IMG/VR virus record: IMGVR_UViG_3300028393_000186
Location: 1 to 35,669 of that record
DNA from: a virus
Direction: 5' to 3' (one strand)
DNA: 35,669 nucleotides
The notes below the pieces were generated by a model. The model made no database searches. It was not told the DNA's origin and was given only the letters and a program-made list of their open reading frames with translations. This document shows positions 5,117 to 35,669 of this stretch, in pieces (the stretch's first letter is position 1; the number at the start of each line of letters is the position of its first letter). The translations under genes were made by a program, and so were the position numbers.

Positions 5117-8100
5117 CTACATGATAGATACTTTAGAAAATCCATCCTCCTTTTTAATATCAATAAAATGCTCAACCATATCTCTCATTATATCTATATG
5201 GGAAATAACCATCATAAAATCAAATTGTGTCTTAAGATAATTAAATAGCAAATATACTTGACCCATATTTTCAGCATCTAACTGAGTAAATCCTTCATCA
5301 ATTGCAATACAATTAGGTTTTGGTAAGCTCGTAATATTGATTAATGAACTTCTAATTGCTAATGATGAAATAAATCTTTCCATTCCCGATGTTAAATCTA
5401 ATGGCCAATAATTATCATCATCATATACTATAAAAGCATTAATATTTTTTTCATCTGTTTGAAGCATAATGCTAAAATCTACTATTTGACCTAATACATT
5501 ATTTATTTCCTGCTCGATTTGAGGCATTACTTTACAAATTAAATCATAAGGAACGCCATTTCTATTTGTTGCAGATAAATATAATTCATAAAATCTATAT
5601 TCTTGCTCTAAGTTTTTTAGTTGATTAATATTTTCGATAGCTAAATCTTTATCTTTCTTCGCTAATTCAATTTCAGTAGATAACGTCGTCATAAAAGAAT
5701 TAATTAATGATACTTCAGACTTTTGATCTTTAAGTAATAGTTTATAAGACTCAATCTTTTTATTAAGATCTAAATTATATTCAACGCTATCTTTATTTTT
5801 ATTATATTCATCAATGCTAAAATCAACAGATTTATATTCGGTCATTAAAGATACTACTTTACTCTTTAATCGTTCAATCTCTAATTCTTTAGCAGATTTT
5901 AATTTATCATAGGACTGCTTTTTAGATAATATGGACTTATATTCATCGCTTAATTTAACATAAGGTAATAAACCTGTTTCTTGTTCTAGTAGAATATCTT
6001 TACTACGGTTTAAATCATCAATTAAAGAATGATGAATATGAATATTTTCCTTTGTTTGAATAGCATCTTTAACAAATATATTATTCATACAATACTTGCA
6101 AGATTCATCGTATTCCAAATCATTCAATTTTCCCATCTTATCTAGAACATGATTCAGTTCTACTTCTTTAATCTGTATTTCTGTTTCAATAGATTTACGA
6201 TCTTGAATGGTTGTATTTAGTGCATTTAACGATCTTTCTATAGACGAAATATCATAAGTATTTACTTTATCTGTTAGAGTTAATATATGATCATTAAAAC
6301 TAGTAATTTCACCATTTAATGCGGTTAAGTTAGTTTTAAGTCCTTCTAATTCTTGATAAATAGACTTCTTTTTCAATTCTAAAGAATTAATATCATAGTT
6401 CGTAATACTTAATGGAATGAGCTTTTCAGCTAATGCAAACATTTCTATATCATTCTTCGTAATATCTGATTCTACAATATCTTTTTGTGATTTGTATTTT
6501 TTAAGCTCTGCAGATTTACTTTTAATGGTTTTATCTGAATCTGCTATCTTTGAGCTAAAGTCTCTTTTTTGATAATCCTTTAATAGTGCCAAAACGTCTT
6601 TAATTTCTTCAGCCGCTATTCTTTGTAAATCATCAAATATATTAATATCCAAAAATTGAGAAAGAAGATCTTTACGTTCTTTTTGAGACATTTCTATAAA
6701 TCCAGAGCTATTATTTTGAGTTATTACTGACGTTAAAATAAAGTCTTTATATGTACCTACATAACCTCTAATAATAGAATTAGTGTCATCTCTTTCTTGA
6801 CCATTTAAAGAAGTAATATTTCCTAGATCATCTACTGAATAAAAATTTACAGTTACTTTAACGTGACCTGTTTTATTCTTAACGCCACTTCTTTCAATAA
6901 AATACTTCTTATTATTAATATCCAATTCCAATTTACATTTAAAGGTCGTCTTTTTATTATTTAAAACATAAGAAGCTTTATCTGTCTTAGTAGATTTATC
7001 AAATATACAATATAATAATGAATCTAGTAATGAACTTTTACCTGCTCTGTTAGAAGCAAATAATCCATAAATACCATTCATTTGTCCAAAATCAATAACA
7101 TTATTTTCGCCATAACTAAACATATTAGAAAATTCAAATCTTCCTAAATTATAAGTTATATTTTTAGATGTATCTATACTTTGAAGCTTAGAATTAATAG
7201 TTCGATTAATATGACGCACCCCATCCAACATAGAATCTTCATCAATATCTAATTTATTAACTAGGTATTCGGTAATAAGAGAATTTTGATATTCTATATC
7301 TCTTACATTACCTAAAGATATTTTTGTTACGTTAGATGAGTCTTTATGAAAGTCTTTTACTTTTTGTGTTACAATATCCAGAACATTATATTTAGATTTT
7401 AAATCAGCTACTAATGTCTTTAATTGAGATGATGTAGTATTTTGAAGTTTTAACTTTACCCTTGCTTTTTTAGGGAATTTAGCTGGATATGAATTTATTA
7501 AACCTGCAGTCGCTTCTAAAGTAATATAACCATAGTCATTTTCTATCTCTACGAATTTTGATTCGCAGGTTTCAATATCCCAAACCAATAATCCGTGGAA
7601 GTTTAAAGTTTCGCCAAAGTTTTGTTGAATAAGACTTGATGCATACGCTATTGTTTTATTAGCATTTAGATATTGAAATTTATGAATATCTCCTAATAAA
7701 GTAATAGCATGATCTGCGAATGTATCTGTATTTACTAAATCATTAGTTAATTGAAATCCTGCATCTGTAGAAGCTTGATTAACTGCCCCGTGATGAAGTG
7801 CTATCTTTATTTTGTCATTTGGAATTTGATTACCTCTAATAAAACTAACTGGCCTATCAGCTACTCCCATAACATTAAAATAAACATTACTAAATTCATA
7901 TACTCCAGTATCTTTTAAATAAAATAGATTAGGATGTTTAATAGCATTAATAATAGGCTCTAACGCATCTAATCTGGTTTTATTATTTAGATTCATATCA
8001 TGATTACCGGTAATTACAATTGTGTCTGTAATATCTGCTAATGATCTAAAGAAGTCTTGAATCAAATTAATTTGTTCAGGCGACATATCTGTTTTAGAAT

Positions 8101-9264: not shown

Positions 9265-9690
9265 CTATTCTTCAAGCCATGCAGCAGGAATTTCTTTTGC
9301 TGCCCATAAATATCCATTTTTATCAGCCCAATTAGCATATGTAGTTTTAGATGCTTTTGATAATTTATTATTGGGAGTTTGAAATAATAAACGAAGATCT
9401 ATATCAGGATTGCTAATTTTTACTAGTAAATGCTTTTTTCTATCAACAGCCGTAAACCTACCTTTAGTTTCGATATACATCTTTTCTCCGTTCCTTTTTA
9501 TTAATATAAAATCTGGAGTATATGATGCTATTCTTTCTGGAATCGTATATTTTAACTTTTCAGATTCATAACTCCATGTATTATCAGTCCTTTTAAGTTG
9601 TTCTGATATTGTATCTTCTAATCCACTACGAAACCCTTTAGATCTTGCTAATGCTCGTATTGAAAATTTCTTAAATGCTTTCTTTGCCAT
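9265..9690 (-). CDS. Holliday-junction resolvase, T7 endonuclease I-like
   Basis: 141 residues, similar along its length to T7 gp3 endonuclease I (149 residues). It has RSGLEDTISEQL around E25, YTPDFIL with D60, YIETKGR with E74 and K76, then DRKKHLL, and ends with an IPAAWLEE tail matching IPAEWIKE of T7. The four residues correspond to the T7 catalytic set E20, D55, E65 and K67. The enzyme cuts branched DNA such as Holliday junctions and replication forks. In T4 this role is filled by the unrelated endonuclease VII, so its use beside T4-like replication genes is a mosaic trait. It lies directly upstream of the primase. Confidence 0.93.
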   Translation of the reverse strand: MAKKAFKKFSIRALARSKGFRSGLEDTISEQLKRTDNTWSYESEKLKYTIPERIASYTPDFILIKRNGEKMYIETKGRFTAVDRKKHLLVKISNPDIDLRLLFQTPNNKLSKASKTTYANWADKNGYLWAAKEIPAAWLEE

Positions 9691-9708
9691 AACTTATTTT
9701 TATTGTTT

Positions 9709-11694
9709 TTAAGATCGATCGAAGCTTACTTCAAAATTTAAATCTAACCCACTACTTTTTGGAATCGGAGTACCTAATTTTGCAATTGCAACTAAATCAT
9801 AATCTTTATCATATAATCCTATTGTAGTAATATATGGAGTAAAGTCAGTGTCAATTGCAAATGGCATTAATGAACCGGTAGCATCATATAATGTAGGATT
9901 AGTACTAGTATTATAATCATTCATAGGAACATTAATAAAATATTTATACTGATCTATATTTATACTGCTTTTATATTTTAATGAAAAGTCTTTAGTTTTG
10001 AATGAGCCAGTAATTAATTCGTTTTGGAAAGGAGAATAAACTATCATTCCTTGCTCATAAAATACATTACCAACTTTATTAGTTTGAAGAGCTAAATAAT
10101 TGGTGTTAGTTAAAGTAGATAAAGATGTTATTTCTGATTGGGTTAATGATTTTCCATAAATCCTTACTTCATCAATTGCCCCATTAAATGGACTTTGAGA
10201 TGCCATAGAAGATGATGAATATCCCTTCGCACCTACAAATATACTATTATTATTAGATACTTTATTTACTGTCGTATCTGCTACCGTACTTATTAAAGTA
10301 CCATCTCTATATATTTGTAAATTACTGCCCGTTTTTTGATATACGATATGATAATTTTGATTAAGATTATTAATAGATGCTGATAATGTTGAAGTATATA
10401 TACCATCATATCTTTTAACGTTTAATGAAGCACTAGTATAATACATATCAAATGGATATGATGCTAATCTCGTGGCTGTATTATTGCTAATATAATATGC
10501 TTTACTAATAATTGATTGTGTAACTGCTGTAGAATATGGAGTCATCCATAAAGATATAGCAAAATCATTATCAAAAGTATTAAACCAATTATTAGTAGTA
10601 TTATTTATTTCGATAGCAGAATTTGTTCCATTAAACTTAGCTTGATAACCATTAGTATATGCAAATCTACTCCAATTTATATTATTGAAATCGTTAGGCG
10701 TTGCTAAGGCAAATCCTGCATTAGATAAATCAATATCAAGACTACCTGCCGTATCTCCCGTTAATGGTACTATTATTCCATTATATAAATCTGTATTTGT
10801 TAGATTTGAACGCGAATACCAATTCATGGTTACTGCATTATACACCCATAACGTATTATTGTTAGGATCTATTGAACCTGAAGGAGATAAATTTATCCAA
10901 TTAGATGTTACGGGTAAATTATTAAACGTAAATATTATTTGATTTGCATTATCAAGAGCAGCCGTATAATTTGTAGCAGGCCCTAATTCTGTATGATAGC
11001 TTCCTGATGTACCCTGTATATATATACTAAAATTAGAATTTAACGGAAATGGGCCATTAATAAATCCTATAGATCCTGACGCCCCTGATTTAAATGTAGT
11101 AGTTGTGCTTCCACTATGAGGTATAGATATACCTGGTATAAATTCAATATTATATGGCGTATATGTATTTGTTATTTTACTTAAATCAAACTCATCATTA
11201 AATCCTAAATATGTAAGATGTCCTGATACGAAGCTTGAAGTATTAATTCTAAGATCAGTTAATTCATAATTTCCATTATCTTGTAAAGTAATAGATTCAT
11301 TTTCAACTCCCGTTAAAGTCAAATAAACACTACTAGGTTTAACTCCATCTCCTACTTTTATACGAGGTAAAGAATAAGTAATTAAATCATAATTTAGTTT
11401 TCTAGAAAAGTTGCCTGCGCCATAATTTATATATCCATATGGATTATAAAAATTATAGTATAGATGATTAATACCATAATAAGTATTTTTCATAAACGAC
11501 CCGTCTGAATTTTTTAATTCCGAGCCCGTTAAAGAACTACTAATAGGAATTAATATATTATTCGGATAAATACCTCTTAAATATGTATAGCTAGAACTAG
11601 TAAATGACGCTGAGGTTAAACTCCAGTTTTTATGAGCCGTATATTTAGTTATATTTGAGTCTCGTATTGAGCCTATTGATTTATAGTCTGACAT
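9709..11694 (-). CDS. Tail fibre-like protein with LamG/concanavalin-like domain
   Basis: 661 residues, rich in Ser, Thr and Asn. Residues of about 350-520 look like a LamG (concanavalin A-like) domain: FNGTNSAIEI at its start, DFAISLWMTP, YRDGTLI and the characteristic GAIDEVRIYGKSLTQSEI near its end. Such domains bind carbohydrate and are common in receptor-binding tail proteins. The C-terminal 45 residues (YITTIGLYDKDYDLVAIAKL) closely match the end of the neighbouring protein at 11787-12893. A terminator-like hairpin lies upstream, so this gene may start its own transcript or depend on read-through. A role in host-surface binding is inference. Confidence 0.75.
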   Translation of the reverse strand: MSDYKSIGSIRDSNITKYTAHKNWSLTSASFTSSSYTYLRGIYPNNILIPISSSLTGSELKNSDGSFMKNTYYGINHLYYNFYNPYGYINYGAGNFSRKLNYDLITYSLPRIKVGDGVKPSSVYLTLTGVENESITLQDNGNYELTDLRINTSSFVSGHLTYLGFNDEFDLSKITNTYTPYNIEFIPGISIPHSGSTTTTFKSGASGSIGFINGPFPLNSNFSIYIQGTSGSYHTELGPATNYTAALDNANQIIFTFNNLPVTSNWINLSPSGSIDPNNNTLWVYNAVTMNWYSRSNLTNTDLYNGIIVPLTGDTAGSLDIDLSNAGFALATPNDFNNINWSRFAYTNGYQAKFNGTNSAIEINNTTNNWFNTFDNDFAISLWMTPYSTAVTQSIISKAYYISNNTATRLASYPFDMYYTSASLNVKRYDGIYTSTLSASINNLNQNYHIVYQKTGSNLQIYRDGTLISTVADTTVNKVSNNNSIFVGAKGYSSSSMASQSPFNGAIDEVRIYGKSLTQSEITSLSTLTNTNYLALQTNKVGNVFYEQGMIVYSPFQNELITGSFKTKDFSLKYKSSINIDQYKYFINVPMNDYNTSTNPTLYDATGSLMPFAIDTDFTPYITTIGLYDKDYDLVAIAKLGTPIPKSSGLDLNFEVSFDRS

Positions 11695-26752: not shown

Positions 26753-27673
26753 CTAATCTTTTAGCAAAATACTTTTTCTAAAATTTAAAAGTCCTTGCTC
26801 TTTACCCTTACATTCTATCATAACATCTACATTAATACCGTAAGTTTCTACAGGACCGTTAATAAATTCGCTATGAGCTTGAGGTCTAATCGTAGAATCA
26901 TTAAGATGAACTGACTTACCTTCAGAATAATGTACTACAGGTATAATATCATATGGCCAAGTCCTAGTTGCTGTCTGTAAAGCTTCAAATTCTGAAAGAC
27001 CTCCCGTGCAAAAAGAATGATGATGATAATCAAAAACGATAGGGACGCTACATTCTGAATGAACCATTTCGTATAATTCTTTAACAGACCACATAGACTC
27101 TCTATCATCATTCTCTACAGTTAATCTAGATAAACATACATCGCTAAGACGTCTTATATTTTTCACCCAAGTATTAGCTGCTAGCTCTTTATTATTATAT
27201 GTAGCGCCAATATGTATATTAATTTTATTGTATACTGACTCCGACAATTCTAATAAATCAAAAACCTTAGAATGGTTTTCAAGCTCTATAAGCGTCTTTT
27301 TAACTACAGCTTCATTAGGAGATGCTAATAAATTAAACGGTCCAGGATGAGCAGATAATCGGTGGTTATGAAGTCGAACATAATGCGCTATCCTCTCCAT
27401 AACTTCTTTTATTTTATGATAATCTGGAAGTTGGGTAAATTCATACTCGCTACACCAAGGAAAAATATCACTACTAATACGAAAAAACTTAATGTCATTT
27501 TCTTCATTCCAAATAATAACTTTTTCAAGGTCAATTACATTCTTCAGTGCTAATTCAGATGCATAAGGTAAACCCTTTGCTAAGAATGTAGCGCGTTTCA
27601 TTCCACGATTCGTGGTTATTTTACTTTTTTGCAAGTGCATATTAATGCAAGCATATCCTAAGTTTCTAATCAT
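26753..27673 (-). CDS. uvsE: UV DNA-damage endonuclease UvsE (UVDE)
   Basis: 306 residues, the family length. It folds as a TIM barrel like endonuclease IV, and the metal ligands can be seen: H109 in LSAHPGPF, H154 in IHIGA, E187 in TVENDDRE, D215 and H217-H219 in VFDYHHHSF, and a late VHYSEGK. The N-terminus IRNLGYACINMHL is typical. UvsE nicks DNA 5' of pyrimidine dimers and other lesions, beginning light-independent repair. It is directly preceded by a promoter-like module whose last bases join its ATG, and follows the terminator at 27721. It therefore appears to be transcribed from its own promoter. Confidence 0.95.
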   Translation of the reverse strand: MIRNLGYACINMHLQKSKITTNRGMKRATFLAKGLPYASELALKNVIDLEKVIIWNEENDIKFFRISSDIFPWCSEYEFTQLPDYHKIKEVMERIAHYVRLHNHRLSAHPGPFNLLASPNEAVVKKTLIELENHSKVFDLLELSESVYNKINIHIGATYNNKELAANTWVKNIRRLSDVCLSRLTVENDDRESMWSVKELYEMVHSECSVPIVFDYHHHSFCTGGLSEFEALQTATRTWPYDIIPVVHYSEGKSVHLNDSTIRPQAHSEFINGPVETYGINVDVMIECKGKEQGLLNFRKSILLKD

Positions 27674-27707
27674 ACTTAAAGATAATGATAATATTTCAAA
27701 TAACCTA
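27674..27707 (-). promoter_or_regulatory. Repeated promoter-like module before uvsE
   Basis: Minus strand: TTTG, 12 bases, then TATCTTTA, followed directly by AGTATG whose ATG is the uvsE start. The same TTTG-N12-TAnnTTTA arrangement precedes the thioredoxin gene (30813) and two tRNA units (34476, 35598). TAnnTTTA is near the Bacteroidota -7 box TAnnTTTG. Confidence 0.6.
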
Positions 27708-27720
27708 ATTATTTTTCAGT

Positions 27721-31770: not shown

Positions 31771-32241
31771 CTATTTACAGATTTGATCTGCTACACGAAC
31801 ACTAAAAGCATTATGAGGTTTCCATCTTGCTTTAAATCCGTAAGATTCAACATAACCAATAGCAGATCTTAATATAGTATTTGATTGCCATTTTGGATCT
31901 TCATTAAAATCTAAATCAATATTTTTTATATCCAATCCTAAATCTGATAGCATAATTGATACTTCTACTGAACGCTCAACTTCTCCCCATAATCTAGTAA
32001 ATCTATCTTTATATTTAGGTAATATATCTTTAGTATATAATACATGACCCCCTTTTCCAGAATCATTTTCATTATAATGTAATACTATAACTGTAGCATA
32101 CGTGGTTTTTTTAGGAGAATTTTGAGAATCTGTACCTACATATAGTTTAGTATCTGGCTTTAGCTTTATTATGTCATTAATATATTTAAATATATCATCC
32201 ACAATTTCATGCGTTCCTAAAGATTTAAATTGTAAGTTCAT
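31771..32241 (-). CDS. YkuK/DUF458-like RNase H-fold protein
   Basis: 156 residues from the ATG at 32241 (MNLQFKSLGTHEIVDDIFKY). An upstream in-frame ATG at 32286 lies inside the tRNA-His-like gene and is rejected as the start. LYVGTDSQN near residue 34-42 is the first strand and acidic residue of an RNase H-like fold; DLDFNED and VRVADQICK supply later features of the YkuK (DUF458) family. The biological role of that family is not established; nucleic-acid processing is plausible. The gene follows the tRNA array by 20 bases and is probably co-transcribed with it, which suggests a link to RNA. Confidence 0.75.
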   Translation of the reverse strand: MNLQFKSLGTHEIVDDIFKYINDIIKLKPDTKLYVGTDSQNSPKKTTYATVIVLHYNENDSGKGGHVLYTKDILPKYKDRFTRLWGEVERSVEVSIMLSDLGLDIKNIDLDFNEDPKWQSNTILRSAIGYVESYGFKARWKPHNAFSVRVADQICK

Positions 32242-32261
32242 GATTTCATTAGTTTTATTAG

Positions 32262-32349
32262 TGTGAAAGGTGGGGGTCGAACCCACATTAGATAATTAAA
32301 TCATTCCAGGACCACAACCTGGTCGGCTACCTTTACCGGCTACAATCAC
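32262..32349 (-). tRNA. tRNA-His-like (anticodon GTG), atypical
   Basis: Anticodon arm CCAGG-TTGTGGT-CCTGG gives GTG. The T arm GTGGG-TTCGACC-CCCAC is perfect. Oddities: the 5' acceptor GTGATTG pairs with CTTTCAC at only five of seven positions, the best D stem (CGGT/GCCG) is shifted by two bases, and the variable region is 19 bases long, as in class II tRNAs. A G at -1 is encoded, as His tRNAs need. It may be functional or decaying. 3' CCA is not encoded. Confidence 0.65.
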
Positions 32350-32364
32350 CATATATTATATTTG

Positions 32365-32436
32365 TGCTTTTTAAGGGACTCGAACCCCTATCCCACCGTC
32401 CGTAGCGGCGTACTCTATCCTTTGAGCTAAAAAAGC
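32365..32436 (-). tRNA. tRNA-Arg(ACG)
   Basis: Acceptor GCTTTTT/AAAAAGC; D stem GCTC/GAGT; anticodon arm CGCCG-CTACGGA-CGGTG giving ACG; T loop TTCGAGT. A34 would need host adenosine deaminase to read CGN codons other than CGU. CCA not encoded. Confidence 0.93.
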
Positions 32437-32552
32437 AAGTTGCTAGGTCACCGATGCTACCTAGCGCGAAGGGTAAAGTTTTGTCTAATTTATCTTTCGA
32501 TACATAGTCGCAGGCTCCCTTTTATTCTTTAACCCGAATCGGTATTAAGGTG
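32437..32552 (-). ncRNA. Structured spacer A in the tRNA array (candidate RNA)
   Basis: No tRNA or coding frame. The minus strand holds a 7-bp hairpin GCTAGGT/ACCTAGC (32442-32465), a TATC-GAAA-GATA tetraloop hairpin (32491-32502), and an AAGGG/CCCTT pair that encloses the latter. Such structure is unusual for AT-rich spacer. Confidence 0.35.
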
Positions 32553-32625
32553 TAGTCCTAACAAGATTCGAACTTGTATCAAGCCCTTAGAAGGGGCGTA
32601 TGCTAATCCGTTGCACCATAGGACT
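32553..32625 (-). tRNA. tRNA-Arg(TCT)
   Basis: Acceptor AGTCCTA/TAGGACT; anticodon arm CGCCC-CTTCTAA-GGGCT giving TCT (AGA/AGG codons); T arm ACAAG-TTCGAAT-CTTGT; discriminator A. Flanked by complementary sequences (32541-32548 and 32638-32646). Confidence 0.95.
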
Positions 32626-32826
32626 AATTTAAATAAGTTAATAGCCGCGATTTTGTATCTCTTCTATCATTTATCTTTGCCACAACCCGACTTCATAGAA
32701 AAACCGACATTCTCAATCTGTTTGTGTTGCTGCTTATAAGGTAATAACGATTTAGTTTAAATCTCCCTTAGTAGGTTTTGCAGTCGCGAACTTCCTCTGT
32801 TACCAGCGATAGACTTACTTATTTTG
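32626..32826 (-). ncRNA. Structured spacer B in the tRNA array (candidate stable RNA of about 190 nt)
   Basis: A 201-base gap without tRNA or gene. Its two ends are complementary (AAATAAGT at 32817-32824 with ACTTATTT at 32631-32638, 8 bp), so the whole gap can close into one domain. Inside are GATTTA-AAC-TAAATC (32749-32763) and a CTG-GTAA-CAG GNRA hairpin. Confidence 0.35.
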
Positions 32827-32913
32827 TACCCCAGGAGAGACTCGAACTCTCACGCTACTATTATTTCGCGCCTGCTTCTAAGGCAGGCATGACTACCATT
32901 CCAACACCAGGGC
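32827..32913 (-). tRNA. tRNA-Leu(TAG)
   Basis: Class II: anticodon arm CCTGC-CTTAGAA-GCAGG giving TAG; variable arm with CGC/GCG stem; T arm GAGAG-TTCGAGT-CTCTC; acceptor GCCCTGG pairs with CTGGGGT using G-U pairs; D stem three pairs as in other Leu tRNAs. Confidence 0.93.
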
Positions 32914-33130
32914 ATAATTCCCTACTCTGAGATTATAAGTAAGTAGATATTCCCGGTTTCCTATTTGTAACCCTGTGGTTCTTACACCTTGTAAACTTCA
33001 ACCATTACTGGGAGCAAGGATGATCTTCCAGCTTTATTCCCACGAAAGAGGCGTTAACGATGTCCTCTTTAGTACCGACCATAGATTAAATGAGTCTTTG
33101 ATTAGACTGCTGAGTACCTCTTACTCATCG
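32914..33130 (-). ncRNA. Structured spacer C in the tRNA array (tandem hairpins, candidate RNA)
   Basis: 217 bases without tRNA. Consecutive hairpins on the minus strand: GAGTA/TACTC (33112-33126), AGTCT/AGACT (33093-33108), AAAGAGG/CCTCTTT (33045-33070), and GGTT...AACC containing TTACA-AGG-TGTAA (32977-33003). The small frame on the + strand here is not a gene. Confidence 0.38.
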
Positions 33131-33203
33131 TTGCGCAGATTAGGAATTGAACCTAATAGTCTTTTATATAAATATAAACGAGTTACCATTACTCCATCTG
33201 GCA
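33131..33203 (-). tRNA. tRNA-like element with AT-only anticodon arm, identity unclear
   Basis: D arm GAGT-AATGGTA-ACTC and T arm TTAGG-TTCAATT-CCTAA are good. The anticodon arm is TTTAT-ATTTAT-ATAAA with only six loop bases; read with a seven-base loop it would show TTA, but two stem pairs then fail. The acceptor TGCCAGA pairs with TCTG(C)GCA only with one extra base. Possibly a decaying tRNA. Confidence 0.5.
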
Positions 33204-33204
33204 A

Positions 33205-33286
33205 TATTTCTCGTCTTTCCGAGATGTCAAGTAAATTTTATAACTTAACCGAATGGATACCATATCGGAAGATTACTATCTCTTTG
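33205..33286 (-). ncRNA. Structured spacer D in the tRNA array
   Basis: Between the tRNA-like element and tRNA-Leu(TAA). Hairpins at 33249-33268 (CCGA and ATGG pairing with CCAT and TCGG, one bulge) and 33209-33224 (TCTCG/CGAGA). No tRNA or gene. Confidence 0.32.
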
Positions 33287-33371
33287 TACTCCCATTCAGA
33301 CTCGAACTGAAACGCCCATCACTGAGCACTGAGGCTTAAACCCAGCGTGTCTACCATTCCACCATAGGAGC
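33287..33371 (-). tRNA. tRNA-Leu(TAA)
   Basis: Class II: acceptor GCTCCTA/TGGGAGT, D arm with GGTAGACAC, anticodon arm CTGGG-TTTAAGC-CTCAG giving TAA, long variable arm, T arm TTCAG-TTCGAGT-CTGAA, discriminator A. Confidence 0.94.
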
Positions 33372-33379
33372 ATTTATTG

Positions 33380-33467
33380 CGGAAAAGAATGGACTCGAAC
33401 CATCACACCCCCATTCGGCGATGAACTGTTTAGCAAACAGCTGCAGTACCATTATGCTTACTTTTCC
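33380..33467 (-). tRNA. tRNA-Ser(GCT)
   Basis: Class II: perfect acceptor GGAAAAG/CTTTTCC, discriminator G, anticodon arm GCTGT-TTGCTAA-ACAGT giving GCT, long variable arm, T arm GATGG-TTCGAGT-CCATT. Confidence 0.94.
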
Positions 33468-33478
33468 TGAGTACTTTG

Positions 33479-33551
33479 AGGGCACGATTGGATTCGAACC
33501 AATGTAGCACGATTTTGCAGACCGGCACTTAAACCACTCAGACACATGCCC
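33479..33551 (-). tRNA. tRNA-Cys(GCA)
   Basis: Acceptor GGGCATG/CGTGCCC; loop CTGCAAA giving GCA; T arm ATTGG-TTCGAAT-CCAAT; discriminator T, the usual U73 of Cys tRNAs. The D stem is weak and one anticodon-stem pair is mismatched. Confidence 0.9.
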
Positions 33552-33563
33552 TTTTTATTTTTG

Positions 33564-33653
33564 AAGAGGAAGGCGGACTCGAACCATCACACCCATTTAA
33601 CCTGATGACTAGTTTTCAAGACTAGGCCGATACCAATTTCGGTTGATTCCTCT
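33564..33653 (-). tRNA. tRNA-Ser(TGA)
   Basis: Class II: acceptor AGAGGAA/TTCCTCT, anticodon arm CTAGT-CTTGAAA-ACTAG giving TGA, 22-base variable arm, T loop TTCGAGT. One T-stem pair is mismatched and the discriminator appears to be T, not the common G. Confidence 0.9.
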
Positions 33654-33660
33654 GTATTTG

Positions 33661-33736
33661 TAGTACTTCACGGATTCGAACCGCAGATCTTCTCTGTGTA
33701 AAAGAGACGCTTTAAACCCAGCTAAGCGAAAGTACT
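33661..33736 (-). tRNA. tRNA-Val(TAC)
   Basis: Acceptor AGTACTT/AAGTACT; D stem GCTT/AAGC; anticodon arm TCTCT-TTTACAC-AGAGA giving TAC; T loop TTCGAAT; discriminator A. Confidence 0.95.
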
Positions 33737-33740
33737 ATAT

Positions 33741-33814
33741 GAGCTCAATACCGGTTACGATCCGATGACCCTTGGTTACAAATCAAGAGTTTTACCAATT
33801 AAACTAATCGAGCT
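33741..33814 (-). tRNA. tRNA-Thr(TGT), T loop ATCGTAA
   Basis: Acceptor AGCTCGA/TTGAGCT; D stem AGTT/AACT-like; loop TTTGTAA giving TGT. The T arm ATCGG-ATCGTAA-CCGGT has A at 54 and T at 58, a swap of the universal T54-A58 pair that is also seen in tRNA-Phe here. Confidence 0.9.
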
Positions 33815-33825
33815 TACTACTTTTG

Positions 33826-33898
33826 TATCGACGGTGAGACTTGAACTCACATTGACCACCTTATCAGGATGGTGACTAAACCATTCATCCACATCGAC
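33826..33898 (-). tRNA. tRNA-Ile(GAT)
   Basis: Acceptor GTCGATG/CGTCGAT; anticodon arm CCATC-CTGATAA-GGTGG giving GAT; T arm GTGAG-TTCAAGT-CTCAC; discriminator A. Confidence 0.95.
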
Positions 33899-33910
33899 AT
33901 ATTTTTGTTG

Positions 33911-33992
33911 CTGATTAAAAAGGAATTGAACCTTAATCCTGCGGTCCATTTCACTACCGTCAAGGGCTTCCTGCCCTTCGTATAGCTAATCA
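33911..33992 (-). tRNA. tRNA-like element without a normal D arm
   Basis: Acceptor TGATTAG/TTAATCA (extendable to 8 bp) and T arm TAAGG-TTCAATT-CCTTT are good. Between them are only AAGGG-CAGGAAG-CCCTT (GGA at the anticodon position, but A instead of U33) and CGGT...ACCG, like a Ser-type variable arm. A D arm is absent. Perhaps a remnant of tRNA-Ser(GGA) or a non-tRNA RNA. Confidence 0.4.
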
Positions 33993-34020
33993 GGACCACT
34001 GTGCCCCATACACCATAATC

Positions 34021-34073
34021 ATTCTGCAGTTTCGAACCTGCGAGGTCTTAAGGTAATTACTCCTAAGACTTTG
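34021..34073 (-). other. T-arm-like fragment with flanking hairpin
   Basis: The minus strand has GCAG-GTTCGAAA-CTGC, a T-arm look-alike with a 4-bp stem and 8-base loop, preceded by a hairpin GTCTTA/TAAGAC. No matching 5' half lies directly adjacent; a D-arm-like 5' half lies beyond the next tRNA-like element (34141-34167). Confidence 0.35.
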
Positions 34074-34145
34074 TAATGCGTATAGGATTCGAACCTATGT
34101 CTACCTCTTCCGCGAGGCAATCCTGATCCACTAGACGAACGCTTC
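34074..34145 (-). tRNA. tRNA-like element with six-base anticodon loop, identity unclear
   Basis: D arm GTCT...AGGA of the Glu/Gln type and perfect T arm ATAGG-TTCGAAT-CCTAT. The anticodon arm is GCCTC-GCGGAA-GAGGT with a six-base loop lacking U33, so the anticodon cannot be read. Acceptor GAAGCGT/ACGCATT has one mismatch. Confidence 0.5.
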
Positions 34146-34160
34146 TACCTACTAAGCTAC

Positions 34161-34201
34161 CTGCAAGAAAACTTATATAGGCTCTGATTTAAGTATTGCA
34201 G
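34161..34201 (-). other. Long hairpin upstream of the tangled tRNA-like elements
   Basis: CTGCAA at one end pairs with TTGCAG at the other, continued inside by TACTTA with an ATAAGT-type strand. Part of it overlaps a tRNA 5'-half look-alike (acceptor plus D arm, 34141-34167). Confidence 0.4.
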
Positions 34202-34215
34202 TACCTTTATCATAG

Positions 34216-34289
34216 TATTCCGTACGGGACTTGAACCCGCAATCTCCTCCTTGAAAGGGAGGTGACTTAACCAATTTGTCCAACGGAAC
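34216..34289 (-). tRNA. tRNA-Glu(TTC)
   Basis: Acceptor GTTCCGT/ACGGAAT; D stem GAC/GTC; anticodon arm CCTCC-CTTTCAA-GGAGG giving TTC; T arm GCGGG-TTCAAGT-CCCGT; discriminator A. Confidence 0.95.
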
Positions 34290-34303
34290 ATTTTATTAAA
34301 TTG

Positions 34304-34377
34304 TGGACCATATAAGACTCGAACTTATAACCTTCTCGTTATGAGCGAGCTGCTCCAACCAATTGAGCTAAAGGTCC
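34304..34377 (-). tRNA. tRNA-Met(CAT) or tRNA-Ile2 (CAT), first copy
   Basis: Acceptor GGACCTT/ATGGTCC; D stem GCTC/GAGC; loop CTCATAA giving CAT; T arm ATAAG-TTCGAGT-CTTAT. No initiator features (the acceptor starts with a G-C pair). A second CAT tRNA at 34536 suggests that one of the two is the lysidine-modified Ile type. Confidence 0.93.
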
Positions 34378-34386
34378 GATTTATAG

Positions 34387-34457
34387 TTCCCACCCAAGGA
34401 CTCGAACCTCGATTCATAGGCTCAAAACCTACTGTCCTGCCATTAGACGAAGCGGGA
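34387..34457 (-). tRNA. tRNA-Gln(TTG)
   Basis: Acceptor TCCCGCT/GGTGGGA; D arm GTCT-AATGGC-AGGA; anticodon arm GTAGG-TTTTGAG-CCTAT giving TTG; T arm CGAGG-TTCGAGT-CCTTG; discriminator A. First tRNA after the internal promoter-like module. Confidence 0.94.
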
Positions 34458-34475
34458 ATTTAATTCTTAAATCCT

Positions 34476-34518
34476 ATACATAAATATAAGATCTTTATTT
34501 CAAATAAACAACCTTTTT
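34476..34518 (-). promoter_or_regulatory. Repeated promoter-like module inside the tRNA array
   Basis: Minus strand: TTG-N20-TATATTTA, equally readable as TTTG-N12-TATATTTA. The upstream 23 bases (34496-34518) are identical to 35619-35641 before the first tRNA. It would start a second tRNA transcript at tRNA-Gln. Confidence 0.62.
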
Positions 34519-34535
34519 CTTTATTTATTTTTTGG

Positions 34536-34609
34536 TACCGAATAACAGATTCGAACTGTTGTCTGAGCCTTATGAGAGCCCCGTAAGAAACCAACTCTAC
34601 TAACTCGGC
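34536..34609 (-). tRNA. tRNA-Met(CAT) or tRNA-Ile2 (CAT), second copy
   Basis: Acceptor GCCGAGT/ATTCGGT; D stem GTAG/TTAC; anticodon arm GGGCT-CTCATAA-GGCTC giving CAT; T arm AACAG-TTCGAAT-CTGTT; discriminator A. Differs from the other CAT tRNA in all stems. Confidence 0.92.
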
Positions 34610-34618
34610 ATTTTTTTG

Positions 34619-34692
34619 TGGATACATCCGAGCCTCGAACTCGGGACTGAAGTTTGCAAAACTCCTGTGATCGCCTACTTCACCAATGACCC
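34619..34692 (-). tRNA. tRNA-Ala(TGC)
   Basis: D stem GTGA/TCAC; anticodon arm GGAGT-TTTGCAA-ACTTC giving TGC; T arm CCGAG-TTCGAGG-CTCGG. The acceptor GGGTCAT pairs with ATG(T)ATCC only if one T is bulged; that alignment restores a G3-U70 pair, the Ala identity element. Confidence 0.9.
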
Positions 34693-34792
34693 AAAAAATT
34701 TAGGAGATGTTACTGTACTTCGCATCTCCAAAGTCCTTAAGACTTACAGCATTCCGTCAATTGTTTATGCTGCTAACTTATTCATGAAAGCG
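34693..34792 (-). ncRNA. Structured spacer E: three consecutive hairpins (candidate RNA)
   Basis: Minus strand order: CAGCAT/ATGCTG (34747-34772), AAGTC/GACTT (34731-34745), GGAGATG/CATCTCC (34703-34729), then TAAATTTTTT just before tRNA-Ala. The last hairpin and T run look like a terminator or a processing signal. Confidence 0.42.
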
Positions 34793-34864
34793 AGCGAATA
34801 CTCAGACTCGAACTGAGATCTCAGGTTTGGAAGACCCGAGCACTAACCATTGTGCTATACTCGC
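34793..34864 (-). tRNA. tRNA-Gly(TCC)
   Basis: Acceptor GCGAGTA/TATTCGC; D stem GCAC/GTGC; anticodon arm CGGGT-CTTCCAA-ACCTG giving TCC; T arm CTCAG-TTCGAGT-CTGAG; discriminator T, usual for Gly. Confidence 0.95.
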
Positions 34865-34873
34865 ATGATATTG

Positions 34874-34946
34874 TAGCGTAGACCGGACTCGAACCGACAT
34901 CGTCTTCATCCCAAATGAAGTACCTCAACCATTAGGCTACTACGCT
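34874..34946 (-). tRNA. tRNA-Pro(TGG)
   Basis: Acceptor AGCGTAG/CTACGCT perfect; D stem GCCT/AGGT; anticodon arm CTTCA-TTTGGGA-TGAAG giving TGG; T loop TTCGAGT; discriminator A. Confidence 0.95.
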
Positions 34947-34959
34947 ATTTAATTTATTG

Positions 34960-35033
34960 CAGTCCCGAGGGGATTCGAACCCCCACCTCAACCGCAGACA
35001 ACGGCGTATCCTAAACCATTGGACCACGGGACT
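34960..35033 (-). tRNA. tRNA-Asp(GTC)
   Basis: Acceptor AGTCCCG/CGGGACT perfect; D stem GTCC/GGAT; loop TTGTCTG giving GTC; T arm with GGGGG/CCCCT; discriminator G as in Asp tRNAs. Confidence 0.94.
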
Positions 35034-35064
35034 ATTTATTTCATTATGTCAAAGAATATAAGGG

Positions 35065-35139
35065 TGCGCCCGGTTGGATTCGAACCAACGACCCCTCGGT
35101 TAAAAGCCGAGTGCATCTATCCAGCTGAGCTACAAGCGC
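35065..35139 (-). tRNA. tRNA-Lys(TTT)
   Basis: Acceptor GCGCTTG/CGGGCGC with G-U pairs; anticodon arm CTCGG-CTTTTAA-CCGAG giving TTT; T arm GTTGG-TTCGAAT-CCAAC; discriminator A. Confidence 0.95.
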
Positions 35140-35228
35140 ATATTGTATTTAATTCAATTTTACGTATAAGCTCATCCTAGATGCAACTCATACCTTTAAG
35201 GTTTTCGTTTCATATTTTTATTTTTTAG
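35140..35228 (-). ncRNA. Structured spacer F in the tRNA array
   Basis: Between tRNA-Lys and tRNA-Tyr. GTATGAG and CTTATAC form a 7-bp outer stem (35164-35193), with an inner CATC-TAG-GATG hairpin. No tRNA or gene. Confidence 0.35.
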
Positions 35229-35301
35229 TGGGATACACTAGACTCGAACTAGATTGGAGTTCGGTTTTACAGACCGTCTCACCTAACCTTGGCAATATCC
35301 C
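35229..35301 (-). tRNA. tRNA-Tyr(GTA)
   Basis: Acceptor GGGATAT/GTATCCC; loop CTGTAAA flanked by CGGT/ACCG giving GTA; T loop TTCGAGT; discriminator A. The variable arm is short for a bacterial Tyr tRNA and the D stem is weak. Confidence 0.9.
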
Positions 35302-35308
35302 AATTTTG

Positions 35309-35380
35309 CTGTGATGGAGAATTTCGAAATCTCGACTCTTTGCTTAACAGGCAAACACTCTTCCTCTGAGTTACATCACA
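35309..35380 (-). tRNA. tRNA-Asn(GTT)
   Basis: Acceptor TGTGATG/CATCACA perfect; D stem ACTC/GAGT; anticodon arm TTTGC-CTGTTAA-GCAAA giving GTT; T loop TTCGAAA; discriminator G. Confidence 0.94.
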
Positions 35381-35395
35381 TTATTATTATTTTCG

Positions 35396-35466
35396 CGCAA
35401 GTACTAGGATTCGAACCTAGATCGGAAGTTTTGGAGACCACCGTGCTACCATTGCACCATACTTAC
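35396..35466 (-). tRNA. tRNA-Trp(CCA)
   Basis: Acceptor GTAAGTA/TACTTGC; D stem GTGC/GCAC; loop CTCCAAA giving CCA; T arm CTAGG-TTCGAAT-CCTAG; discriminator G. Confidence 0.94.
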
Positions 35467-35493
35467 GAATTAAAAATTTCGTTTACTTTTTTG

Positions 35494-35566
35494 TGCGAGG
35501 AATTGGTAACGATCCAATATCTCAGGTTTTTCAGACCAGCGCATAAGCCATCTTTGCTATCCCCGC
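35494..35566 (-). tRNA. tRNA-Phe(GAA), T loop ATCGTTA
   Basis: Acceptor GCGGGGA/TCCTCGC; D stem GCA/TGC; loop CTGAAAA giving GAA; T arm ATTGG-ATCGTTA-CCAAT with A54 and T58, the same swap as in tRNA-Thr. First tRNA of the array in transcription order. Confidence 0.9.
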
Positions 35567-35597
35567 ATTTTATATTTTACTTTACTACCTAACTTAC

Positions 35598-35641
35598 TAT
35601 ACTTAAAAATAATGATTATATTTCAAATAAACAACCTTTTT
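35598..35641 (-). promoter_or_regulatory. Repeated promoter-like module before the tRNA array
   Basis: Minus strand: TTG-N20-TATTTTTA, also TTTG-N12-TATTTTTA. It lies about 35 bases upstream of tRNA-Phe and shares an exact 23-base block (35619-35641) with the module at 34496-34518. Probable promoter for the array. Confidence 0.65.
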
Positions 35642-35669
35642 TTTTATTTTTAGACGATCATATACGCAC

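Follow-up and report, generated by a model that had tools for sequence, protein, structure and literature searches.

A 35,669-base piece of viral DNA (IMG/VR record IMGVR_UViG_3300028393_000186; hereafter the window) carries a one-strand array of tRNA genes, and the 200-nt gap between its tRNA-Leu(UAG) and tRNA-Arg(UCU) genes very probably encodes a minimal RNase P RNA of ~195 nt (Table 1). Nearly all cells have RNase P, and it has been assumed that viruses borrow that of their host. Homology of the element to RNase P RNA is well supported by comparison of sequences, and we consider it probable that the locus gives rise to a tRNA-punctuated transcript that would carry its own 5′-processing RNase P RNA, used together with host RnpA. 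Relatives, cited here by locus number (L), were gathered as 80 loci by searching with the RNase H-like protein encoded next to the array. Homologues of the element lie in L022, L023 and L024 (87–88% identical), in L025 and in L051 (74%).

The two ends of the element pair with each other (AAATAAGT with ACTTATTT) to form helix P1, which closes the molecule and has 86.9% of its cells paired and double changes at 5 of 9 pairs in the pair counts described below. Helix P4 forms between CR-I and CR-V; 98.2% of its cells are paired, 4 of its 8 pairs show double changes, and a bulged U (U32789) lies outside the helix in both RNAalifold and the pair counts. The element reads CAGAGGAAGTTCGCGA near its 5′ end (CR-I) and AAAGATAAATGAT...ATACAAAATCGCGGCTA near its 3′ end (CR-V), and the CR-I and CR-V letters GAGGAAGU and AGAUAAAUGAU...ACAAAAUCGCGGCUA agree with GAGGAAAGUCC and AGATTGATGATAGGACACGACAGAACCCGGCTTAT of a Bacteroidales rnpB. 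In CR-V, the phage of L076 has AGATTAATGATAGGATAAAACAAGATCCTGGTTAC where this Bacteroidales rnpB has AGATTGATGATAGGACACGACAGAACCCGGCTTAT, the nearest among the rnpBs compared, as judged from the letters and not from a tree. This catalytic core, composed of P4 with its bulged U, CR-I and CR-V, is the best-conserved part of the molecule and is invariant among the window, L051, L142 and L143. The phage RNA thus shares with bacterial and archaeal rnpB (RF00010, RF00373) P1, a bulged-U P4, the CR-I and CR-V letters and the order of the catalytic helices, and its homologues match both models; it differs in being phage-encoded, in its length, in its stub of a specificity domain and in that the window copy lies below Rfam detection.

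The main departure from cellular RNase P RNAs concerns the specificity domain. CR-I and CR-V are separated by ~122–161 nt, as against roughly 280 in the Bacteroidales rnpB, and a stub hairpin stands in place of the full domain with CR-II and CR-III that characterizes types A and B. Retention of the catalytic domain with near-complete loss of the specificity domain is instead the feature of type T, the minimal RNase P RNA of Pyrobaculum and its relatives, which is described as active in PMC7191817 (citing Lai et al. 2010). The likeness does not extend to membership of the archaeal type T lineage: type T genes are chromosomal and archaeal, whereas in CR-V the RNAs of the phages are like Bacteroidales rnpB, and no Rfam family, the RNase P types included, matches the window copy.

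Homologues of the element match Rfam models of RNase P RNA. That of L051 matches RNaseP_arch (E=1.1e-3), the array element of L076 matches both RNaseP_bact_a (E=2.5e-12) and RNaseP_arch (E=8.2e-13), and the homologue in the huge uncultured phage LR756508 matches RNaseP_bact_a (E=7.9e-15). All these matches fall short of the gathering score, as expected because the homologue RNAs are shortened. In the reciprocal direction, a covariance model (R2) trained on the window, L022, L023 and L051 only, with L076 and LR756508 excluded, finds L076 (6.5e-24), L010 (6e-21) and LR756508 (2.8e-11) in 1.24 Mb of phage loci, with nothing further at E<1 besides the training sequences and duplicates. In whole records it finds LR745206, a phage of 634 kb (2.8e-27), the next unexplained matches being ~0.01 or weaker; L142 and L143 are found at ~1e-48. 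Some of these copies, including that of LR745206, are unannotated. In three bacterial genomes R2 misses the full-length rnpB that RF00010 detects at E<1e-75, indicating that R2 models the reduced form. A BLAST search of public phage records with the RNase P RNAs and with ncRNA-A, another spacer RNA of the array, returned only the two huge-phage records themselves.

The proposed structure is supported by covariation. Over seven distinct sequences, 94.3% of cells are paired, 31 of the 50 pairs show double changes and none of 500 shuffles is as good, while sliding the partner by 1–3 columns lowers pairing to 33–42%. The alignment used for these counts was fitted to the structure and is biased towards it, though hardly enough for the observed effect. 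Covariation was used because the folding energies of the RNase P RNA and of ncRNA-A (z −0.11) match those of shuffles.

In the window and in L051, L076 and L010, the element abuts its neighbours, the gap to the flanking tRNA on either side being ~0–6 nt. We propose that the locus is a single tRNA-punctuated transcription unit whose array would supply a near-minimal decoding set of tRNAs. The embedded RNase P RNA, reduced to the catalytic domain, would fold into a core of P1, P4 with its bulged U, CR-I and CR-V, would most likely bind host RnpA and would cleave the 5′ leaders of phage pre-tRNAs. Processing of the tRNAs would at the same time generate the ends of the RNase P RNA: because the element abuts tRNAs on both sides, the cut at the leader of the next tRNA would free the ribozyme's own 3′ end. 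LR745206 encodes, in addition to the RNA, an RnpA (E=2.9e-13; a 115-residue frame with the RNR motif, L137 1465–1812) and a CCA-adding enzyme. Close to its rnpA lie a gene for a Clp protease and an open reading frame (ORF) of receptor-like type, so a chimeric assembly is possible. With somewhat less assurance, we also favour the wider proposal that large phages own a catalytic-domain-only RNase P that would mature polycistronic tRNAs and free itself, sometimes together with phage RnpA and a CCA-adding enzyme. Separately, L010 holds GOLLD, ~27 tRNAs, the RNase P RNA and a transfer-messenger RNA (tmRNA) within one 8-kb stretch (L010 677–1102, 7524–7887).

Several observations weigh against this reading. 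The window copy is unmatched by any Rfam RNase P model, even at E=10 on 251 bases, and its predicted fold is not more stable than shuffles (z +0.31). The specificity domain, which holds the T loop in bacterial RNase P, is almost missing. The copies of L142 and L143 have no tRNAs at their border, and L021, a close relative (197-kb record), has no copy at all, which makes the RNA dispensable. Finally, a search for RnpA (PF00825) gave no hit in L021, L024, L051, L076, L010, L046, L055 and L097, nor in LR756508, Microcystis phage Mel-JY01 or the Flavobacterium phages immuto, many of the records searched being fragments; the majority of these phages presumably rely on the RnpA of the host.

The main rivals are a decoy and a decaying gene, and conservation of the core together with covariation counts against both. 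A decoy would keep an RnpA-binding fold, cut poorly and divert host RNase P from host pre-tRNAs; the near loss of the specificity domain would suit this, as would the lack of RnpA in most of these phages, whose RNA would hence need that of the host. We regard this as unlikely. The catalytic core, needless for a decoy, is what has been conserved best, the gene lies within a tRNA array, and in LR745206 the RNA occurs together with RnpA and a CCA-adding enzyme. That the element is instead a captured host rnpB, degenerating and of no present function, would fit its patchy presence, L021 being the example, and the failure of the window copy to match Rfam. A decaying gene would, however, lose pairs, whereas 31 of the 50 pairs here carry double changes that preserve pairing; many phages have lost the specificity domain in the same way, and the core is invariant among the four copies named above, which makes decay very improbable.

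It is likewise hard to credit that the locus matters only as a replacement for host tRNAs, for example after cleavage by a defence system, with incidental spacers. It is known that tRNAs of phages can counteract defences directed at tRNAs (PMC10264068, PMC11555353), and a near-minimal, U34-rich set of 20 isotypes fits an AT-rich genome. Yet several spacers equal or exceed the tRNAs in conservation (ncRNA-A ~90%, S3 97%, ncRNA-B 94–97%), unlike incidental sequence, so that this account, although compatible with the RNase P finding as a reason for the tRNAs, is incomplete. Least probable of all is a structured RNA of other origin whose likeness to RNase P RNA is due to convergence or chance, since, even though the Rfam matches come from homologues only and stay under the gathering score, match and reciprocal match reach E=1e-11 to 1e-27, the CR-I and CR-V letters agree with a Bacteroidales rnpB and helix order and spacing are those of the catalytic domain.

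Table 1 Coordinates of the features discussed, given as window positions
Feature	Position	Strand	Evidence or remark
AT-rich promoter-like repeat, further copy	27672..27716	−	partial
RNase H-like protein, YkuK type (PF04308)	31771..32241	−	Pfam E=1.2e-20; downstream of array
24 tRNA genes, 20 isotypes	32261..35566	− (all)	ARAGORN; Rfam RF00005
tRNA-His, deviant	32261..32349	−	35.9 bits
ncRNA-A, pseudoknotted, ~115 nt	32437..32551	−	core CCTGCGACTATGTATCGAAAGATAAATTAGACAAAA; spacer between Arg(UCU) and Arg(ACG)
Minimal RNase P RNA (very probable)	32626..32825	−	homologues; Rfam on homologues; reciprocal covariance model; pair counts
P1 of RNase P RNA	32824..32817 with 32638..32631	−	
CR-I of RNase P RNA	32799..32780	−	
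P4 of RNase P RNA	32792..32784 with 32650..32643	−	U32789 unpaired
CR-V of RNase P RNA	32679..32640	−	
S3, conserved, 218 nt	32914..33131	−	between tRNA-like 33132..33202 and Leu(UAG); in L021, L022, L076 (10238–10455), L033 (5833–6057) and L082 (~9650–9780)
tRNA-like RNA, anticodon loop too short	33132..33202	−	Rfam 33.6 bits, above cut-off; 98.6% in L021
tRNA-Ser(UGA)	33563..33653	−	28.2 bits
S5, tRNA-like	33899..34073	−	homologues in L022, L013, L033, L051, L111, L046
tRNA-like RNA, 6-nt anticodon loop	34074..34145	−	Rfam 34.3 bits, above cut-off; 77% in L021
CAU tRNA, most likely tRNA-Ile2	34303..34377	−	
AT-rich promoter-like repeat	34458..34532	−	AAAGGTTGTTTATTTGAAATA...TATAG / GGTTGTTTATTTGAAATA...TATAG; inside array
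CAU tRNA, read as elongator tRNA-Met	34533..34609	−	
ncRNA-B, 99 nt, three hairpins	34693..34791	−	97% in L021, 94% in L019 (5803–5895), 82% in L022 and L023
tRNA-Tyr(GUA), atypical	35228..35301	−	no Rfam match up to E=10
AT-rich promoter-like repeat, second copy	35594..35652	−	upstream of the window's first tRNA

The original prediction of a one-strand array covering all 20 isotypes, with a deviant tRNA-His, agrees with the ARAGORN calls, which number 24 in the array and zero in total in 200 dinucleotide-preserving shuffles of it. In order of transcription the tRNAs are Phe, Trp, Asn, Tyr, Lys, Asp, Pro, Gly, Ala, Met(CAU), Gln, Ile2(CAU), Glu, Ile, Thr, Val, Ser(UGA), Cys, Ser(GCU), Leu(UAA), Leu(UAG), Arg(UCU), Arg(ACG) and His. 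Scored against the RF00005 covariance model, 22 of the 24 reach its gathering score; the exceptions are Ser(UGA), slightly under the 29-bit cut-off, and Tyr(GUA). The latter has no long variable arm and a short T stem, and ARAGORN misses the copies in relatives too; because it is kept in five of these (L010, L019, L021, L022 and L023), it is an atypical tRNA-Tyr and not noise. The deviation of tRNA-His consists of an insertion in the variable region and mismatched acceptor pairs. One of the two CAU tRNAs is most likely a tRNA-Ile2 of the lysidine type, given that in L022 and L023 the anticodon of its positional homologue is UAU; the other would therefore be the elongator tRNA-Met. In L021, a tRNA of the initiator type (GGGCUCAUAACCC stem) is located upstream of the array. 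Since the window stops before the corresponding position, the array is probably truncated, and an initiator tRNA would probably sit upstream, beyond the contig end. Two further tRNA-like RNAs score above the Rfam cut-off. That at 33132–33202 was considered as an ochre suppressor and rejected, its anticodon loop being too short for reading.

The set is near-minimal, with one tRNA per codon box, mostly U34, and its predicted fit to an AT-rich genome is upheld. If U34 reads whole four-codon boxes, all codons of the window genes are covered save CGG, whose share rounds to 0.00 of their Arg codons. Two other claims fared less well. The statement that very few phages carry a full set is too strong, as complete or near-complete sets are usual in this lineage, relatives in IMG/VR having comparable arrays: nine other loci compared, some of them mutual duplicates, carry all 20 isotypes in a single array, and 18 or 19 are present in many more. 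Published cases are phage XacN1, whose tRNAs cover all 20 amino acids (PMC5852040), and huge phages, in which up to 67 tRNAs occur (PMC7162821). The suggested near-independence from host tRNAs is weakened because an encoded CCA end is missing in nearly all array tRNAs and the closest relatives' records yielded no CCA-adding enzyme. By itself the tRNA set is ordinary and of an already known kind.

In addition to the RNase P RNA, four spacers of the array (ncRNA-A, S3, S5 and ncRNA-B) have homologues in other arrays, and some of the conserved spacers adjoin different tRNAs in different phages. Searched against 4227 Rfam families with E up to 10, these four gave only tRNA-type and weak chance matches. 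The most widespread, ncRNA-A, occurs in about ten distinguishable phage groups and is associated with tRNA clusters wherever its context was examined (L009 319–431, L016 5225–5350, L019 7703–7810, L115 1501–1616, and others). Its nearly invariant core is flanked by four helices, of which two interleave to give a pseudoknot and one spans a long range; they pair despite sequence changes at 44/45, 45/45, 59/60 and 49/51 pairs in a register set by hand. Matches at L017 and in the genome contigs L100–L104 were discarded as chance pattern matches unsupported by model R1. Kinship of ncRNA-A with RNase P RNA, suggested by a common AAAGATAAAT and ACAAAA, was also rejected, the layout of its pseudoknotted helices being different and R2 giving no match. 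Directly upstream of ncRNA-A, L096 (~1961–2345, − strand) and L019 (~7680–7702) show repeated tRNA-like units with the acceptor AGTCAGG/CCTGACT; in L096, one tRNA-like pair encloses a small membrane-protein-like ORF.

S5 retains an acceptor and T arm, while its anticodon arm is replaced and it has an extra 5′ hairpin and a T-arm-like hairpin. An intron at ~33909–34020 was rejected, since relatives differ in the length of the insert, which stands in place of the anticodon arm; as a guess, S5 might serve as a substrate for processing or be a tmRNA-like molecule that has no reading frame. The position of ncRNA-B among the tRNAs shifts between relatives.

The window is 30% G+C overall and 42% in the array, and its genes include those of a phage head protease, a baseplate protein and an endolysin. 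The baseplate protein is closest to those of Mel-JY01 (52.5%), LR756508 and the immuto phages (42–43%), and the phage would be a large tailed phage, probably with a Bacteroidota-like host. A PF04308 gene lies near tRNA clusters in many relatives, and its YkuK-type RNase H-like product is a possible RNA-processing partner. The AT-rich repeat, of which further copies occur in L015/L021, L022, L023 and L019, looks like a phage promoter; a scan for sigma-70 promoters and terminators found nothing exceeding the shuffle level and no sigma-70 enrichment in the repeat.

Comparison with known systems suggests that the phage RNase P RNA, a variant of a known RNA, is what is new here. The arrays of XacN1 and the huge phages are likewise large one-strand clusters of all isotypes; the present one differs in being a near-minimal set of 24 whose spacers hold an RNase P RNA besides further conserved RNAs, and neither PMC5852040 nor PMC7162821 mentions RNase P. 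Theta ribozymes, which resemble the hepatitis delta virus (HDV) ribozyme and lie beside phage tRNAs (PMC10879173), are also phage ribozymes placed at tRNA borders for tRNA maturation, but they cut themselves at tRNA 3′ ends, whereas RNase P works in trans on 5′ ends. An Rfam search found no HDV-like ribozyme in the window. In L051 (768–830), a weak HDV-like match (33.1 bits, E=0.025) directly precedes tRNA-Val and is possibly a theta ribozyme. GOLLD and ROOL RNAs (PMC12286853) are structured phage RNAs in or near tRNA islands, and the relative L010 has GOLLD; ncRNA-A, ncRNA-B, S3 and S5 differ from them in being smaller and in matching no Rfam family, GOLLD included. Searches of the open-access literature yielded no phage-encoded RNase P RNA, although a description in a subscription journal is possible. 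The P finder paper (PMC7191817) mentions no phage or virus and places minimal type T in archaea only, and in the megaphages of one group Rfam reportedly gave only tRNAs and a tmRNA (PMC8172020). Sub-threshold RNAs of the present type would yield just such a result, and huge-phage genomes would in that case be under-annotated.

If the proposed reading is correct, viruses themselves encode the RNA-enzyme component of tRNA maturation. The phages would possess a virus-encoded tRNA maturation pathway with an independently evolved minimal, type-T-like RNase P, a non-archaeal counterpart of the archaeal minimal enzyme. The remaining conserved RNAs of the array represent new candidate families. The finding would also suggest how large tRNA arrays could be processed once host functions are shut down.

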